A stretch of 64,000 bases of DNA. It comes from Oceanimonas pelagia. Lineage in GTDB: Bacteria > Pseudomonadota > Gammaproteobacteria > Enterobacterales > Aeromonadaceae. Positions 1 to 36,028 of the stretch are shown here, in pieces (positions within the stretch are counted from its first letter, which is position 1; every line of letters starts with the position of its first letter). Made by a program: the position numbers and the translations under genes. Location: NCBI RefSeq assembly GCF_030849025.1, contig NZ_CP118224.1, positions 2,154,001 to 2,218,000 of the forward strand, given 5' to 3'. Under the pieces are notes generated by a model that did not search any database, was not told the origin of the DNA, and saw only the letters and a program-made list of their open reading frames with translations.

Positions 1-1551
1 AATACCGTGCGCGCCGTGCTCGACTACAACCGGGGGCCCCTGCGCCACGGGGAGCTGAAGGCACTGAAGCAGGCCTTCAACGATCTGCTGATCAATCATG
101 CCAACGCCGACATGGCCGAGTCCTTCTACAATTCGGTTTACCGCCGCTCCACCCGCCATCGCAGCATTCGTGCCGAAAACCTGTATGTGCACCCCTTTGT
201 GCCTTACCCGGGAGAGCAGGATCTTGCCCCGGTCATCTGGCAGTACCGCATTGCCCCCGGTGAGCTGGGCACCACTTTAACGGAATTGCTGAAACGCCTG
301 GGCCTGGAGCGGCCCTTTGTGCGGCTGGCGCAGGATCTGGAGCACATGGAACGCACCCTGGCCGAGCACGGACTGGCCGGCGTCCCCCTGCAGCTGACAG
401 TGATCAACACCCTGTTTTACCGCAACAAGGGGGCCTACCTGATCGGCCGGCTGGAACGCCCCGAAGGACCGCAGCCCTTTATTGTGCCCATTCTGCACGA
501 AGAGGGGGGACTGGTGCTGGACACCCTGCTGCTGAGCCGGGACGACGCCTCCATTCTGTTTGGCTTTGCCCGGGCCTATTTCATGGTGTGGTGCCCGCAG
601 CCCTCGCTGCTGGTGCAGTTTCTGCGGCCACTGCTGCCCAACAAGTCGGATTACGAAATCTATAATGCCATCGGCTGGCAAAAACACGGCAAGACCATTT
701 TCTACCGGGGCTTTCTGCAGCACTTGCAGCACTCACGGGACCAGTTCGTGCCGGCGGAAGGCATCAAGGGCATGGTGATGTGCGTGTTTACCCTGCCCTC
801 GTCCGACGTGGTGTTCAAGGTGATCAAGGATCACTTCACTCCCCCAAAAACCGTGAACCGGGATACCGTCAAGGCCAAGTACCGGCTGGTCAAGCAGCAC
901 GACCGGGTGGGGCGCATGGCCGACACCATGGAATTCACCAACTTCGAGCTGCCCCTTAACCGCATCAGTCCCGAGCTGCTGGCCGAGCTGCGGCGGGAAG
1001 TGCCATCCCTGCTGACCCAGAAGGAAGACCGGCTGATCATTCATCACCTGTATACCGAGCGGCGCATGACCCCGCTCAATATGTATCTGGACCAGGCCGA
1101 TGACGAGCAACTGAGAGATGCCCTGGACGAATACGCCAGTGCCCTCCGCCAGCTGGCCGCCGCCAATATCTTTCCCGGCGACATGCTGTTCAAGAACTTC
1201 GGCGTCACCCGCCATGGCCGGGTCATTTTTTACGATTACGACGAAATCGCCTACATGACCGAGTGTCACTTTCGCGACATGCCCAGAACCGACCACCTGC
1301 AGGATCAGCTGAGCCCCGAGCCCTGGTACTCGGTGGGGCCGAACGATGTGTTTCCCGAAGAGTTCAAAACCTTTCTGCTGGTCAGGCCGCGCATTCGCGC
1401 CGCCTTTGCCGAGCGGCACATGGAGCTGTTTACCGCGGATTACTGGCGGCAGTTGCAGCACAACATTGAACAGGGCCGGGTGGAAGACATCTTCCCCTAC
1501 CGGCGCCGGCAGCGGTTTAAATACAAGTACGGTGAAAACCGTGAGGAGTGA
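1..1551 (+). CDS. aceK: Isocitrate dehydrogenase kinase/phosphatase, 5' truncated
   Basis: Bifunctional enzyme that phosphorylates and dephosphorylates isocitrate dehydrogenase to divide carbon flux between the TCA cycle and the glyoxylate bypass. The frame is open from base 1, so roughly the first 60 residues of the usual ~575-residue protein lie outside the window. It follows the E. coli AceK pattern throughout, including FGFARSYFMV-like FGFARAYFMV, the VFKVIKDxF kinase segment, KEHDRVGRMADT-like KQHDRVGRMADT, and the C-terminal RQLAAANIFPGDMLFKNFGV block with the downstream YDYDEI metal-binding segment. It is a host chromosomal gene, convergent with rraA. Confidence 0.97.
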   Translation, partial: NTVRAVLDYNRGPLRHGELKALKQAFNDLLINHANADMAESFYNSVYRRSTRHRSIRAENLYVHPFVPYPGEQDLAPVIWQYRIAPGELGTTLTELLKRLGLERPFVRLAQDLEHMERTLAEHGLAGVPLQLTVINTLFYRNKGAYLIGRLERPEGPQPFIVPILHEEGGLVLDTLLLSRDDASILFGFARAYFMVWCPQPSLLVQFLRPLLPNKSDYEIYNAIGWQKHGKTIFYRGFLQHLQHSRDQFVPAEGIKGMVMCVFTLPSSDVVFKVIKDHFTPPKTVNRDTVKAKYRLVKQHDRVGRMADTMEFTNFELPLNRISPELLAELRREVPSLLTQKEDRLIIHHLYTERRMTPLNMYLDQADDEQLRDALDEYASALRQLAAANIFPGDMLFKNFGVTRHGRVIFYDYDEIAYMTECHFRDMPRTDHLQDQLSPEPWYSVGPNDVFPEEFKTFLLVRPRIRAAFAERHMELFTADYWRQLQHNIEQGRVEDIFPYRRRQRFKYKYGENREE

Positions 1552-1584
1552 GGGGTAAGATGAAGCAGCATCTCCTCACTCCTG
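1544..1584. terminator. Hairpin between convergent aceK and rraA
   Basis: A perfect 10-bp inverted repeat (AGGAGTGAGG ... CCTCACTCCT) overlaps the aceK stop and lies 24 bp before the rraA stop. There is no clear T-tract, so it may be a bidirectional hairpin rather than a classical intrinsic terminator. Confidence 0.5.
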
Positions 1585-1607
1585 TCTCCTCCCCCCTCAC
1601 ACAAACA

Positions 1608-2099
1608 TCAAAGCTGCGGGTGGCTCAGGGGTTCGCGGGATACCAGCACGCCGTTGAGATCGGAGTAGATATAATCCCCCGGATAAATGGTGACCCCGGC
1701 AAAGGTCACCGGCACGTCCACCACGCCCTCGCCGCGTTTTTCCGAGCGGATCGGACACGCCGCCAGGGCCTTGATGCCCAGCGCCAGCTCACTCAGGGTG
1801 CCGGCGTCGCGAATGGCGCCATGAATGACAATGCCTTCCCAGCCGTTTTCCAGTGCCTTTTCCGCCAGCATGTCGCCCATCAGGGCGCAGCGCAGCAGGC
1901 CGCCACCGTCCACCACCAGCACCTTGCCGGTGCCGGGCTGGGACACCAGCTCCCGCACCCGGGAGTTGTCTTCGTAGCAGCGCACCGTCACCGCCTGGCC
2001 CCAGAACAGGGACTCTCCGCCAAAGTCACGAAACACCGGGTCCAGTACCTTGACCAGGTCGGCGTGTTCGTCACACAAATCCGGCAACAAATCGAGCAT
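1608..2099 (-). CDS. rraA: Regulator of ribonuclease activity A
   Basis: Binds RNase E in the cytoplasm and inhibits it, which alters global mRNA turnover. The 163-residue product has the family length (~161) and hallmark blocks: FRDFGG, AVTVRCYEDN, VLVVDGGG, GWEGIVIHGAIRD and an acidic metal/ligand loop. I place the start at base 2099 because a GGAGG Shine-Dalgarno stands just before it and the product then begins MLDLLPDLCDEH, as the family does; a longer frame from 2138 lacks this. It is the last recognisable host gene before the phage. Confidence 0.93.
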   Translation of the reverse strand: MLDLLPDLCDEHADLVKVLDPVFRDFGGESLFWGQAVTVRCYEDNSRVRELVSQPGTGKVLVVDGGGLLRCALMGDMLAEKALENGWEGIVIHGAIRDAGTLSELALGIKALAACPIRSEKRGEGVVDVPVTFAGVTIYPGDYIYSDLNGVLVSREPLSHPQL

Positions 2100-2422
2100 G
2101 TTTTCCTCCGTTATCAGCACAGACTGTCGGGCTTTCATCTTGGGCGAAAGTCCCGGTTTTCAAAAGCGGTATCGCCGTTTGCACCGGCCATAATGACATC
2201 GAATCGGCGCTTGACCTGGATCAAGCCCTTCCATAAAACTATTTAACAATATCCGTTGCAAACTGTTGTTATGCCCCTGTTGTACGGTACGAGGGTACAT
2301 AGGAGAACATAGCAGGACAAGTCCTTGATTTACCGTACATCTATGAATTCTAGCAGTACCTGAGTGTACAGAAGGGGGACGGGATTTGTCCCCAAATCGT
2401 CCCCAAACCGAATTGGGGACAA
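2100..2422. other. Host-phage junction, candidate left attachment region
   Basis: No gene is convincing here. The stretch separates rraA from the phage late-operon terminator. It holds a perfect 9-bp dyad, TGTACGGTA (2281-2289) and TACCGTACA (2331-2339), enclosing a smaller GGAC-AA-GTCC dyad, and then several GGGGAC boxes (about 2377-2420). Such a junction is where attL would be expected, but the matching right-hand copy is outside the window, so this remains inference. Confidence 0.35.
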
Positions 2423-29434: not shown

Positions 29435-30631
29435 TTACGCAGTGAAGTCGAGCAGGGTACGGGTGTCGCCGTAAACCAGGCGATAACCGGTGTTCTCGGT
29501 CTTCAGGTAGGTGATGGTCTGGTTCTGAATCGCCTTCTCGGACTCCTCGATATTGGAGTTGGCTTCCTTCAGTTCTTCCAGAGTGTCGCCCACGGAGTAG
29601 CACAGCAGCTTGCCGGCAGGCATGGCGCTGGACAGCTGGAACTTGATGTTCTGCATCACCGGCAGTACCAGAGACACGTTCGGCGCACCATGCTCCTGCA
29701 GATGCTCAGCCATGGACTTCTGGCCCACAACCGGCTGGAACATCAGGAACAGCTCAAGGTAGGAGTCCAGGTTGCCCACCACGGTGTCCACGGGGGTGCC
29801 GGCTGCAGCCTGTTTCACCAGGAACTTCATCAGCGCCGGGTAGTTGTCCTTCAGGGTCTTACCACCGGTCAGGTCAGCGCCGAACTCGGAAATACCCTTG
29901 GTGGGCGCAGCAGCGTTCAGGCCGTCACCGTTCACCAGGACGTTGGTGGCCGCACGAACCTTGGACAGCTCCAGCTGACGGTCGATACGACGGGCGTAAG
30001 GAGTCAGGATGTCCAGGGATACACGACGCTCAAACTCGTAGGTGGTGCGGATACCACGGCCGTGCTTGTAGAAGCGAACGGTACGCTCATCGGTCTCGAT
30101 GGAGTCAACCGGGATACGAGAACCTTCCGCCACGGTAGCGGTCTTCAGGGCGTCGGAGTCGTCCTGTACCACACGGCTCAGCAGCTCGGTGCTGGATACG
30201 GTACGGCTGTTGGCCAGCAGACCTTCCACGCGCTCCAGGTTGTCCTGACGGTGGCTCCACTGGATCATATCGTCGATGACCTCAGGGAACAGACCACGGG
30301 CGCCCGGGGTAGAGTCGAAGGAGTCGGCAGCGGCCTGCAGGGTAACACCACTGCGGAAGTCGTTGCGGATCGGCAGGTTCAGCTGGGCCAGAGCCGCTTC
30401 ATAACCAGAGGCGGCCATACCGTTAGGCAGGCGGAAACGGTCGGCGTCCTTGGAAGCGCGAACATCAACAGCCAGGTCCAGATAGTCACGCAGGTTCAGA
30501 CCGTACTTCTTGGCTTCACCTACCAGCTTCTGGCCGGCGCGGCGGGAGGTTTCCGGGTCGGTGCCCTGCAGGCCATCCAGTACCATTTCGAGGGGACGGC
30601 GTTGAATTTCACTCAGTCGTTTCAGAGACAT
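29435..30631 (-). CDS. Major capsid protein
   Basis: 398 residues, HK97-fold candidate. The N-terminal ~90 residues are helical and charged, like a delta/scaffold-type arm, before GARGLFPEVIDDMIQWSHRQ. The remainder alternates strands and helices (P-domain spine LSKVRAATNVLVNGDGLNA) and ends with an A-domain-like stretch. It follows the protease-scaffold and decoration genes and is preceded by a start-associated repeat plus CTGGAG, and followed by a strong terminator. Confidence 0.85.
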   Translation of the reverse strand: MSLKRLSEIQRRPLEMVLDGLQGTDPETSRRAGQKLVGEAKKYGLNLRDYLDLAVDVRASKDADRFRLPNGMAASGYEAALAQLNLPIRNDFRSGVTLQAAADSFDSTPGARGLFPEVIDDMIQWSHRQDNLERVEGLLANSRTVSSTELLSRVVQDDSDALKTATVAEGSRIPVDSIETDERTVRFYKHGRGIRTTYEFERRVSLDILTPYARRIDRQLELSKVRAATNVLVNGDGLNAAAPTKGISEFGADLTGGKTLKDNYPALMKFLVKQAAAGTPVDTVVGNLDSYLELFLMFQPVVGQKSMAEHLQEHGAPNVSLVLPVMQNIKFQLSSAMPAGKLLCYSVGDTLEELKEANSNIEESEKAIQNQTITYLKTENTGYRLVYGDTRTLLDFTA

Positions 30632-32317: not shown

Positions 32318-33784
32318 TCATTTTTTCGGCCGGTTTTTGTTGGCTTTGGACTTGACTGACTTGTCGCTGGCCTTGCTGACTGAACGACCCAGGGGATCGT
32401 CATTCGGGCTCACTTCCCCTTCAGCCAGGGCGCCGCCGGCAGACATAAACCCGGTACCCGACAGCTCAGGGGAGGAGTCGGGGCGCAGCCGGCGGTACAT
32501 CCACAGATGGTACTCATCGTCGGTAATCAGACCGTCCGAGAGGTCTTGCCGCAGCCGGTTCGCCTTCAGGTTCAACTGGGCTTCCAGCTCCATCTCGGAG
32601 CGCAGCTCCACCTCCGGGAATCTCACTACTACCCGGCTCTCGCTACCTTGCAGGCGCAGGGCCATGGTCAGTATACGAGACAGGATATCGCCCACCGGGC
32701 CGTTAATGGCTTCAGCGTTCAAGGCGAAAATGCGAGCCTCAACGGTAGCGGTGTTCACCCCGGACTCGCCACGACCCAGGATGGTGGCCATGGTGCGGAG
32801 TCCGGCCTGATTCTGAGCGTTAAGCACGTTGATGATGGCGGTGATATCCAGGGCCATGCCCGGGTTCTTGTCGTTCAGAATGCTGATGTCGGCGCTGTCG
32901 TAGTGAGCAATCGGCTGGTCCGGTCGCAGCGCGGCAAACTGGCCGGCAAGCTCACTTCGACGTGCGTTCAGGTAGCGACGGAACTCCACCGGGTCATTGC
33001 GCACGTTCGCCGGCGCATTGCGGGCCACCACTTCCTCCAGGATCTTGATGGTGATACGGGGGTAGCCCGTCACCTGCATGATGCGGTAGAGGTCATTGAT
33101 CACCTGCTGCCGGGCAGCAATGGTGTTGATGGCCGAGACGAACACCGAGGTGCTGTAGGCCTTGTTGGGGGCCTTGCGAAAATACTCCACAAAGAACGTG
33201 GGAATATCCAGAGGTACGGGGTCTCCGCCTCCCACATCTTGAAATGGCACAACGCGGCCGGGCTCGGGCTCCTGCCACTTGATGTTCTTGAGGTCCACCT
33301 GACGAACTTCTGAAAGCGTCAGGAGTTCATCAAACACCGCCTCGGCGGCGATACCGCCCCTCAGCAGCACCATGTAGCGCATTTCCTCGGCTATCACCCT
33401 CAGGCTCTTGCTACGCTGGAAGCCTTTGGAGTAGTCCCGGCGCACGGTCAGCCGCTCCAGCAGCTCAGCACAAATCTTGTAACCGTCCCGGTCCACCTGA
33501 CCTTCCGGGTCCTGGACCAGGATCAGCGGCTCGATATCCGCCGTGGTAAGGAATGCGTTTACCGCCGCACTCATATCCGGGTCGCTTTCAAACAACGTCT
33601 CCAGCAGCTCCTGAGAGGTCTGAGTCTGCCGGTCAGAGAAGATATTCTGCAGGTGTTCCCGGTACTCGGGTGCGCTCAGTATCTCCTTCGGGTTGTCTGA
33701 GTTGTAGGTTGCCGTAACCGACGTACCCTTGGGTTTGGTGCGTTTCGGCAGCAGGATTTTCAGTTTGCTTAATACTTCAGCCAT
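32318..33784 (-). CDS. Portal protein
   Basis: 488 residues. Forms the dodecameric DNA channel of the head. Portal-like organisation: N-terminal arm, SDPDMSAAVNAFLTTADIEPLILV, a long stem-helix region, the IINVLNAQNQAGLRTMATILGRGESG segment and EAINGPVGDILSRILTMALR, then a basic C-terminal tail. It lies directly after the large terminase. No SPP1- or lambda-B-type signature dominates. Confidence 0.85.
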   Translation of the reverse strand: MAEVLSKLKILLPKRTKPKGTSVTATYNSDNPKEILSAPEYREHLQNIFSDRQTQTSQELLETLFESDPDMSAAVNAFLTTADIEPLILVQDPEGQVDRDGYKICAELLERLTVRRDYSKGFQRSKSLRVIAEEMRYMVLLRGGIAAEAVFDELLTLSEVRQVDLKNIKWQEPEPGRVVPFQDVGGGDPVPLDIPTFFVEYFRKAPNKAYSTSVFVSAINTIAARQQVINDLYRIMQVTGYPRITIKILEEVVARNAPANVRNDPVEFRRYLNARRSELAGQFAALRPDQPIAHYDSADISILNDKNPGMALDITAIINVLNAQNQAGLRTMATILGRGESGVNTATVEARIFALNAEAINGPVGDILSRILTMALRLQGSESRVVVRFPEVELRSEMELEAQLNLKANRLRQDLSDGLITDDEYHLWMYRRLRPDSSPELSGTGFMSAGGALAEGEVSPNDDPLGRSVSKASDKSVKSKANKNRPKK

Positions 33785-33799
33785 GATTGCCCTTTCAAG

Positions 33800-36028
33800 T
33801 TAGCCCCGATGCCGGGTAATGATTTTTCCGTTCCGGTTTGCCCGCCACTCGCCACCAAACAGATCCCCACCCATGGGCTGGTAGCCGGGCAGTATGGTGT
33901 TGCTCTCGAAACCGAACGCATCCAGGTTGTCAAAGCCCAGACCAACATGCTGATAGTCCTGATTGGCCAGCTGAACGCCGTGATAACACATGGCGCCCAT
34001 CATGAAGGCACTGGCATGGAAGTAGTGGTCTTTGCCGTTCAGCTTGCGCCACACCGCCTCCCCTTCCTCGGGAACATCCCGCACCATATCCCGGAAGTGC
34101 TCGATAATCAGGGCTTTCTGGTTGGTGTAGCCGGTGAAGGACACATGGCCTTTTTTGATGGCGTTGCTGATGTAGTCCAGTACCAGGGTCCGGTTGATCT
34201 GCAGGTGAGAGACAGCACCGGTGGCATCCTTCGCCTCGGCCACTTCCTTGGTACCTCGGTATTCCATGGGCATGATGATGCCATTGGTCATATCCCGGAT
34301 ACGGTCAGCGGTCGGCGTGTACGGATGACGGTCGATGCCGCCGCCCACAATGCGATACCGCTGGAACAGCTTTGCCACCAATCCCTCAAGCTCGTCGGCC
34401 CGGCAGGTATCCCAACGCACGATGTCGAATTTGGCCATGGAGTCGCCCACGCCCAGCACCAGGTTGCACACCTGACCCACGTCGATACCCAACCAGTAGG
34501 CCTTTCCTTCCTGAGGAGGGGGAACGGCGCTGCTGATTTGAAAGCAAAGCTCCAGGGCCTTTTCGGTAAGCCGGTTCTCGCCGTTTTTGTCCACCTCGCC
34601 CAGCACGGTGTTGCAGAAGCCCTTCATGTTGTCCCGGGCCTTGTAGCGGAACAGCTGAGTCACGATGTAGCGAACGTCCAGGCGCTCGGTGGAGAACGGC
34701 CGCACCTGATAGCCTCGGGCGAAGCTGGAGCGGCTGGGGTACTTGGCCACCCACTCCCGGTTGTCATGGTCTCCCAGATCCAAGGGCTTGTGGCATTTCT
34801 CGCACTTCACATGGCAACCGTCCAGGTTGATCACGCCCTCATCGAGCAACTGCTGCTCCAGGTCCAGCAGATCCTGCACATGATCAGGCAGGCCCGGGAT
34901 ATGGATGAAATCACGGGTAAATACCGGATCCTGATGGTGGCCGCAGGCCTGGCACTTGATGAGGTAGTGCATCTGGTCACTGACCGAATAACCCTTATGC
35001 ACCCCGTACCCCTCATAGGTAGGCGTGGAGAACCGCTGATTGATGCGCAGATCGGAGCCCTGCAGACGAGAGTTGAACAGGGCCAGCATATCCTGGGAAG
35101 TTAGGTCGATTTCGTCGTTGAACACGATATCGGCGTTGATAGAGGTCGCATCGGCCTCGGCGGCGCCGGTGACATACAGCCAACTGGAGCCGATCTTCAT
35201 CAAGCTCATGGCTTGTTTTGTGCCGGCGGCGTCGGGGTTGCGGAAAGCCCGGTCGTCCAGCAGCGGCTGAATACGGGCCTTTGAAATCCGCTTGTACATT
35301 TTCTCGTTGGGTAGCGTGAAGATCAGGCTGATCCCGGGGCTTCGCTTCAGGATGGCCAGGGCCTTGCGGATCTGGACCTCGGTGTTGTGCGTGGGGATCC
35401 GGCCACGGCCGGCCAGGAACAGGTGACTCTCGGAGCTGACCGAGATACAACGCACCGGTCGGGTTTCCACCGGGGTAATGCTCTCGATATTCCATTGGAA
35501 AGGGTCACCGTCCTGAAAGGCGGGGGAGTCGGGGTCCACATCGTTGGGGATCCAGTAATCCCCCCCCACCATGTCCTCGGTGCGCATCACTCCCGAACCG
35601 CCCTGCCACTCCACATACCAGCGGTGATTGGCGTCGGCCACGATGGTTTCGCCGGTATCAAAAGTCACGGCGAAACACGGGTGGTCGGTGTAGACGGGTG
35701 AAACATACTCCACTCGGCAGGGCTGGCCTTTCTCGTCATACACTGTATCCCCCACTTGAAGGGCACCCATGGTGCTCCATCCATTGGGTGTGGGTACGGG
35801 CGTGTTAAGGTCCAGGGCCAGACCCACCTGGGACGGTTTGATAACGTCCATGTTGTCGTGCATATCGTCGGCAATCGCCTTCTGGAACGGGTACCGCTTA
35901 AAGCTGAAAGGCTTGCCCATCAGCTTGGTGTTGGCACACATCCAGTCGCCGTGGCTCATGGAGTCCCGGTCGATGTTGTAGCGGTTGTTGGCGTCCTTCA
36001 GGAAGCTGTCGAGAAACGGGTTAACCAT
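33800..36028 (-). CDS. Large terminase (GpA family) with intein
   Basis: Motor and nuclease that packages DNA. The precursor is 742 residues and the spliced product 597. The extein joins KPSQVGL (64-70) to TEVQIRKAL (216 on), a GpA-family Walker A-like loop that only forms after splicing. Further blocks are DIVFNDEIDLTSQDM (Walker B), a zinc-ribbon-like CQAC...CEKC region, and the nuclease part with WLGIDVGQVCN and GGGIDRHPYTPTADRIRD. I start at 36028 (GGAAGAAG upstream), overlapping the previous gene by 8 bp, and reject 48 extra residues from 36172. Confidence 0.9.
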   Translation of the reverse strand: MVNPFLDSFLKDANNRYNIDRDSMSHGDWMCANTKLMGKPFSFKRYPFQKAIADDMHDNMDVIKPSQVGLALDLNTPVPTPNGWSTMGALQVGDTVYDEKGQPCRVEYVSPVYTDHPCFAVTFDTGETIVADANHRWYVEWQGGSGVMRTEDMVGGDYWIPNDVDPDSPAFQDGDPFQWNIESITPVETRPVRCISVSSESHLFLAGRGRIPTHNTEVQIRKALAILKRSPGISLIFTLPNEKMYKRISKARIQPLLDDRAFRNPDAAGTKQAMSLMKIGSSWLYVTGAAEADATSINADIVFNDEIDLTSQDMLALFNSRLQGSDLRINQRFSTPTYEGYGVHKGYSVSDQMHYLIKCQACGHHQDPVFTRDFIHIPGLPDHVQDLLDLEQQLLDEGVINLDGCHVKCEKCHKPLDLGDHDNREWVAKYPSRSSFARGYQVRPFSTERLDVRYIVTQLFRYKARDNMKGFCNTVLGEVDKNGENRLTEKALELCFQISSAVPPPQEGKAYWLGIDVGQVCNLVLGVGDSMAKFDIVRWDTCRADELEGLVAKLFQRYRIVGGGIDRHPYTPTADRIRDMTNGIIMPMEYRGTKEVAEAKDATGAVSHLQINRTLVLDYISNAIKKGHVSFTGYTNQKALIIEHFRDMVRDVPEEGEAVWRKLNGKDHYFHASAFMMGAMCYHGVQLANQDYQHVGLGFDNLDAFGFESNTILPGYQPMGGDLFGGEWRANRNGKIITRHRG
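35384..35818 (-). other. Class 3-type mini-intein in terminase Walker A
   Basis: Residues 71-215 of the terminase. Block A is ALDLNTPVPTPNGW with Ala instead of Cys/Ser at position 1. Block B ends ADANHRW (His135, Trp137), block F begins VRCISV (Cys194), and block G is IPTHN followed by Thr216. Trp, Cys and Thr are the WCT set that marks class 3 inteins, which start splicing from the block F Cys. At 145 residues there is no room for a homing endonuclease. The insertion point is the ATP-binding loop. Confidence 0.9.

Follow-up and report, generated by a model that had tools for sequence, protein, structure and literature searches.

The window analysed here is a stretch of 64,000 nt from Oceanimonas pelagia (contig NZ_CP118224.1). 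Its minus strand harbours a gene for a large terminase of the GpA family, which is interrupted in frame by an intein (Table 1). Two identical 17-bp sequences, which form the longest stretch shared exactly by 4 kb on the left side and 32 kb on the right side, probably represent attachment sites and would bracket a prophage of approximately 77 kb beside aceK. This prophage contains genes for head, portal, tape measure and tail fibre proteins, primase, helicase, DNA polymerase and a tyrosine integrase. The frames for terminase, portal, head and tail are all located on the minus strand, so that it is reasonable to speak of a late operon, as was done in the initial annotation. In the phage collection, the closest large terminases are those of Pseudoalteromonas phage KB12-38 and its kin, and the phages with related terminases are 77-85 kb in size, similar to the prophage.

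Table 1. Features of the terminase locus and of the surrounding prophage. Positions are counted from the first nucleotide of the window; intein residues are numbered from the first residue of the intein.
Feature	Position	Strand	Remarks	Basis
Host gene aceK	7-1551		left of the prophage	
Candidate attL	2265..2281	.	17 bp; identical copy at 79195	
Major head protein	29435..30631	-		phrog_3922, E 2.2e-72
Portal protein	32318..33784	-	next gene downstream of the terminase	phrog_3753, E 2.5e-101
GpA-family large terminase gene with in-frame intein	33800..36028	-	742 aa, ATG start	
C-extein	33800..35383	-	527 aa and stop; starts with TEVQIRKAL	alignment with five intein-free terminases; model of L073 (same family)
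+1 Thr	35381..35383	-	protein Thr216; doubles as the Walker A loop Thr	translation, five-terminase alignment
His144-Asn145	35384..35389	-	G:6 and G:7; Asn145 is protein Asn215	translation, alignment
Class 3 mini-intein	35384..35818	-	145 aa, protein residues 71-215	stop-free translation, 6rix match, model, Foldseek
Thr143	35390..35392	-	G:5, T of WCT	alignment, published signature
Cys124	35447..35449	-	F:4, C of WCT; predicted initiating nucleophile; protein Cys194	alignment
Trp67	35618..35620	-	B:12, W of WCT	alignment, published signature
His65	35624..35626	-	block B:10	alignment, published numbering
Cys48	35675..35677	-	counterpart of the M. smegmatis DnaBi1 disulfide partner	alignment
Intein residue 1, Ala	35816..35818	-	no N-terminal Cys/Ser/Thr	translation
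N-extein	35819..36028	-	70 aa, Walker A-like end ...IKPSQVGL	alignment with five intein-free terminases
Tyrosine integrase	77800-79161		just inside the right 17-bp copy	

The terminase was assigned to the Pfam family PF05876 (GpA_ATPase) with 49.1 bits at a cut-off of 25.6, and in PHROGs it matched phrog_675 (terminase large subunit) with an E value of 9.8e-100. Its domains were analysed via an intein-free homologue, L073, which is 54.8% identical to the window terminase over the C-extein. A model of L073, based on an alignment with 22 rows, had a mean pLDDT of 85.9. The ATPase part of this model resembled the TerL proteins of P74-26 (4znl, Z 20.1) and HK97 (Z 20.0), while its C-terminal part resembled terminase nucleases (5m1f, Z 16.8). 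Thus, as judged from the modelled homologue, both the ATPase and the nuclease domain of a GpA-family large terminase are predicted to be present. The host family according to Pfam is GpA, yet the best structural matches of the L073 model belong to other terminase families.

Two further candidates for inteins in the prophage were rejected. A tblastn search with the two halves of the intein in the window and the 32 kb to its right gave only the terminase below an E value of 1. The prophage DNA polymerase (997 aa) showed an over-long match to its family model, and an insert was considered; in this protein no intein model matched and inspection by eye revealed no intein ending.

Class 3 signature and fold of the intein

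Translation of the inserted segment gives the sequence ALDLNTPVPTPNGW...RPVRCISVSSESHLFLAGRGRIPTHN. The initial annotation had placed an intein of 145 residues within a frame of 742 residues, and the coordinates, the length and the residues which it named proved to be correct: protein Cys194, Asn215 and Thr216 correspond to Cys124, Asn145 and the +1 Thr. According to the available text of PMC5222942, class 3 inteins are marked by Trp B:12, Cys F:4 and Thr G:5 (WCT), while His B:10, His G:6, Asn G:7 and a +1 Ser/Thr are splicing residues in general. The segment contains the whole set, namely Ala1 in place of a nucleophile, the WCT triplet, His65, His144, Asn145 and the +1 Thr. The Trp-Cys-Thr set described in the initial annotation is therefore present, but its Thr is Thr143, and Thr216 at the +1 position is a separate splicing nucleophile.

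The assignment to class 3 in the same annotation was borne out by sequence and by fold. A phmmer search against the PDB sequences gave end-to-end matches to 6rix_A (E 3.3e-25), 6riy_A (1.6e-24) and 6bs8_A (6.4e-24), and the NCBIfam model TIGR01443 (intein_Cterm) was matched with 19.5 bits at a curated cut-off of 15.6, while a Pfam search with the intein segment alone revealed no family. An AlphaFold2 model built from 16 aligned inteins had a mean pLDDT of 92.7. When it was compared to known structures with Foldseek, the top seven matches were chains of 6rix, 6riy and 6bs8 with E values from 1.6e-12 to 7.6e-12, and the predicted structure has the Hint fold (6rix_B, E 1.6e-12, TM by target 0.90). 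The closest solved relatives are the class 3 DnaB inteins.

These relatives are the Mycobacterium DnaB mini-inteins of M. chimaera (6rix and 6riy) and M. smegmatis (DnaBi1; 6bs8 and 6own), which share the catalytic set with the window intein. The residues Cys124, His65, Thr143 and Trp67 of the M. chimaera DnaB1 intein have even the same numbers (PMC7664689, available text). Further common traits are the lack of an endonuclease, the insertion in a P-loop, a +1 Ser/Thr with a dual role, and Cys48. In contrast to them, the window intein resides in a prophage terminase and not in a replicative helicase, and its identity is approximately 40%. With respect to host and setting, it resembles the class 3 inteins TerL1-c, -d and -e of mycobacteriophages, which are also inserted in a terminase ATPase of a phage; the P-loop terminase sites TerL1-a and -b were described in mycobacteriophages as well (PMC5050341). 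However, the mycobacteriophage hosts in the available part of that study are of the Terminase_1 and Terminase_6 types only, whereas the window terminase is of the GpA type and belongs to a non-mycobacterial prophage. In sum, it is well supported that the window intein represents a new and clear case of an element type already known, the class 3 mini-intein.

Empty, full-length and mini versions of the insertion site

The intein is inserted in the sequence KPSQVGL/TE (the slash marks the insertion point) between residues 70 and 71 of the terminase, in the Walker A region (P-loop). The initial annotation had located it at SQVGL/TEVQ in the ATP loop, and it had proposed a search for intein-free alleles. 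Both points were confirmed by the large terminases of five annotated phages, KB12-38, JWF, Seuss, Mystique and Lumi (from Pseudoalteromonas, Achromobacter, Caulobacter, Acinetobacter and Xylophilus, respectively), and the site is empty in further relatives, too. The five terminases are 40-49% identical, and in them [TS]E follows SQ[VI]G[LMV] directly, precisely at the place where the window protein has its insert, so that the boundary of the intein is fixed by these alignments.

In a set comprising GTDB genomes (5 loci), viral contigs (the best 80 of 113 confirmed), the five phages and the window, the site is empty in 80 of 91 terminase rows and filled in 11, the window included; these rows contain copies. 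After removal of redundancy, 8 of 68 terminases carry an insert (for the viral contigs again among the best 80 of 113). Seven inteins besides that of the window are found at the identical insertion point. They have the class 3 signature and are 47.6-63.4% identical to the window intein, but all except one (L058) differ from it by the presence of an endonuclease domain. Their lengths are 148 aa (L058), 364 aa (L113), 365 aa (L055), 373 aa (L075), 399 aa (L115), 403 aa (L059) and 407 aa (L083), compared to 145 aa in the window. In the six long ones, LGLWLGDG- and LLxGLMDTDG-like endonuclease motifs were recognized by eye, and when 16 class 3 inteins, among them five of these six, were combined in a profile, its positions 98-269 matched PI-SceI (E 1.7e-11). 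This region is absent from the window intein and L058, which are the only mini-inteins at this site in the set compared (for the viral contigs, the best 80 of 113), the others having kept an endonuclease of the LAGLIDADG type. The lack of an endonuclease noticed in the initial annotation thus holds: only 56 residues lie between Trp67 and Cys124, as fits a mini-intein.

The natural reading of these sequences would be a homing intein at a fixed site, of which the window and L058 carry two decayed mini-copies. Since the terminases of L058 and L076 are 85.8% identical, yet only the former has an intein, the site has changed its state recently. Within one phage family, a single site is thus found empty, with a full-length intein or with a mini-intein, which is a good natural series for intein gain, decay and loss.

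Class 3 inteins are also found at the matching place in other GpA-like terminases, for instance in the contexts KSAQMGA/TE (L010), KGAQLGA/TE (L140 and L141) and KSARVGY/TK (L165 and L203). Those of the viral contigs L140 and L141 are mini-inteins of 156 aa in the matching P-loop position, which suggests that endonuclease loss at such sites was repeated or is old. A terminase-like ORF of 1041 aa in another viral contig (L023) contains a class 3 intein and, after it, another intein-like stretch that ends with SHN/C.

Splicing, the Walker A loop and the Cys48-Cys124 pair

In the L073 model, the intein site falls into a loop that links a strand (59-63) to a helix (70-84). We take this terminase loop to be the equivalent of the Walker A lysine of lambda gpA. 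The +1 Thr of the window is both a splicing residue and the Thr of the loop, as is the case with the +1 serine of DnaBi1, which serves splicing and the P-loop alike (PMC6195587, available text). According to the published class 3 pathway, a precursor of 742 aa would be made first, Cys124 would attack the Leu70-Ala71 bond, the N-extein would be transferred to the +1 Thr, and Asn145 would then cyclise. The product would be a terminase of 597 aa with an intact KPSQVGLTE loop. Without splicing, the ATP loop would be interrupted, with the intein separating the strand from the helix on its two sides, and the precursor should be inactive, neither hydrolysing ATP nor pumping DNA. The position in the Walker A loop and the conserved extein residues therefore suggest that packaging of the prophage DNA should need splicing, which we predict to occur. 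The element itself would be a degraded homing intein that is kept since its imprecise loss is presumably impossible. Altogether, sequence and models argue for a class 3 mini-intein in the Walker A loop of a prophage GpA-family large terminase, from which a protein of 597 aa would be spliced, and we assign to this reading a probability of roughly 0.93.

A regulatory role for the intein is possible. In M. smegmatis DnaBi1, H2O2 leads to a disulfide between Cys48 and the catalytic Cys118 and splicing is blocked (PMC6195587), and zinc binds Cys118 (PMC7360933), as described in the available parts of these papers. Both cysteines of the pair, Cys48 (aligned with Cys48 of DnaBi1) and Cys124, are present in the window. 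The initial annotation had proposed a post-translational checkpoint, and the presence of the DnaBi1 cysteine pair, the sole support found, makes this proposal testable. By analogy, a Cys48-Cys124 disulfide, or a metal on Cys124, could stall splicing, so that terminase maturation and packaging would await a reduced cell.

How far Cys48 is conserved bears on this idea. Cys48 of DnaBi1 was termed non-conserved, and all seven substitutions tried abolished splicing (PMC6195587, available text). Alignment A2 has Cys48 in each of its 16 inteins, and 80 of 92 nonredundant related class 3 inteins have it as well (the set comprised 93, one of which is cut before the position). In a wider nonredundant set, which is a biased sample from the best 80 per scan, it is present in 153 of 207 inteins and absent from 54; one of the scans was purposely seeded with a Cys48-poor group, and rows with more than 15 gap columns were removed before counting. 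Universal conservation is ruled out by the 12 and 54 inteins without Cys48 in these two sets; L173, for example, lacks it, while the mini-intein L058 has it. On the tree of the 207 inteins the state of this position is clustered (14 changes compared to a shuffled mean of 48). Cys48 is, as far as these sequences tell, common in class 3 inteins and often lost along with lineage. Thus, in many class 3 inteins of phages, the residue termed non-conserved is the one usually found at this position, by which the oxidation-sensor proposal becomes testable outside mycobacteria, in a harmless phage protein. Our literature search found no discussion of Cys48 outside the DnaBi1 papers in the texts available.

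The retention of Cys48 can be read in two ways: either most class 3 inteins require it for splicing, or it serves as a redox latch, and the latter would be a novel case. The seven inactive DnaBi1 variants agree with the first, since Cys48 may be kept for splicing itself. The class 3 intein AceL NrdHF, which is naturally split, splices without Cys48; its sole other cysteine, which lies in the N-part where the position is not conserved, is replaceable (PMC7891396, available text). Together with the inteins lacking Cys48, and with the need for terminase late and in bulk, this makes a conditional intein in the window unlikely, despite the DnaBi1 precedents and the frequency of the cysteine. It is tempting to speculate that Cys48 and Cys(F:4) form an ancestral, class-wide redox latch and are not just a peculiar trait of a single mycobacterial helicase, a latch which is kept even in non-homing copies and lets maturation of the phage packaging motor await a reduced cytoplasm, but we regard this broader proposal as quite improbable.

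Prophages decay, and the endonuclease of this intein has already been lost; it could accordingly be asked whether it is a dead or poorly splicing relic, leaving a prophage which cannot package. However, its frame is still open, all catalytic residues as well as the conserved residues of the exteins are kept, and the frames for head, portal, tape measure, tail, polymerase and integrase are open, so that we consider a relic very unlikely. Last, all Hint domains share their fold, and class 1 inteins and hedgehog domains appear lower in the Foldseek list, but it is very improbable that a class 1 or class 2 intein, or a different Hint domain, has been taken for class 3 here, given that residue 1 is no nucleophile, the WCT set is full and the best matches in sequence and fold are class 3.

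The residue before the catalytic cysteine varies among the 207 inteins, being mostly Arg, Lys or Ala in those with Cys48 and mostly Gln or Val in those without. This pattern may be a lineage effect or a coupled change.

Occurrence and origin of class 3 inteins

The initial annotation had called class 3 inteins rare and mostly reported from phages. The phage setting is supported for the window intein. Rarity does not stand for phage sequence: when viral contigs were scanned three times with profiles from class 3 alignments, the scans gave at least 529, at least 592 and at least 595 confirmed relatives. The WCT set was found in 207 of the 208 nonredundant inteins with both ends that were kept from the best 80 per scan (the 208th is cut before it), a figure which is partly by construction as the search profiles were class 3. 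Few class 3 inteins have been described in publications, though they are abundant in phage sequence. The PHROGs terminase profile phrog_15 already contains an intein stretch, which means that intein-bearing terminase genes sit unlabelled in databases. Our literature search, with subscription journals mostly outside its scope, revealed no publication that deals with inteins in terminases of the GpA type; the window adds this type of terminase to the known P-loop intein hosts.

Horizontal transfer of the window intein was considered and not accepted. Two inteins are more similar to that of the window than their exteins are (63.4 vs 41.8% identity for L115 and 60.7 vs 43.3% for L055), and L058 shows the reverse (47.6% for the intein vs 52.0% for the extein); such contrasts are suggestive only. 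The tree of eight inteins (109 columns) was too weak, being unresolved, and the grouping of the terminase tree was not rejected (p-AU 0.517 and 0.289). On the terminase tree, intein presence requires 7 changes, and 148 or 149 of 500 label shuffles were as low. The scattered presence in these sequences would fit mobility, but is equally expected from few carriers. The GC content is 0.609 in the intein, 0.585 in the C-extein and 0.565 in the prophage; the base composition of the intein does not stand out, and a recent arrival is therefore not supported.

Matches were obtained in 1 of 23 genomes of the genus and in 3 of 75 genomes of the family. Besides the window, they comprise only a distant GpA-type terminase (L228, 25% identity) and, in L229, a DnaB-like protein which carries an intein of its own, so that the intein-free alleles come from phages of other hosts. 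The DnaB-like protein is encoded at 391-2376 (minus strand) of L229, from a genome of the same family; its intein resides in the P-loop with the borders GK/A...THN/T, and at the position of Cys48 it seems to have Val. Last but not least, an ORF of 1228 aa in the viral contigs L016 and L018 contains three apparent class 3 intein-like segments, which start near residues 96, 300 and 701; just 133 aa make up the first, which has a Gly-Asn end.
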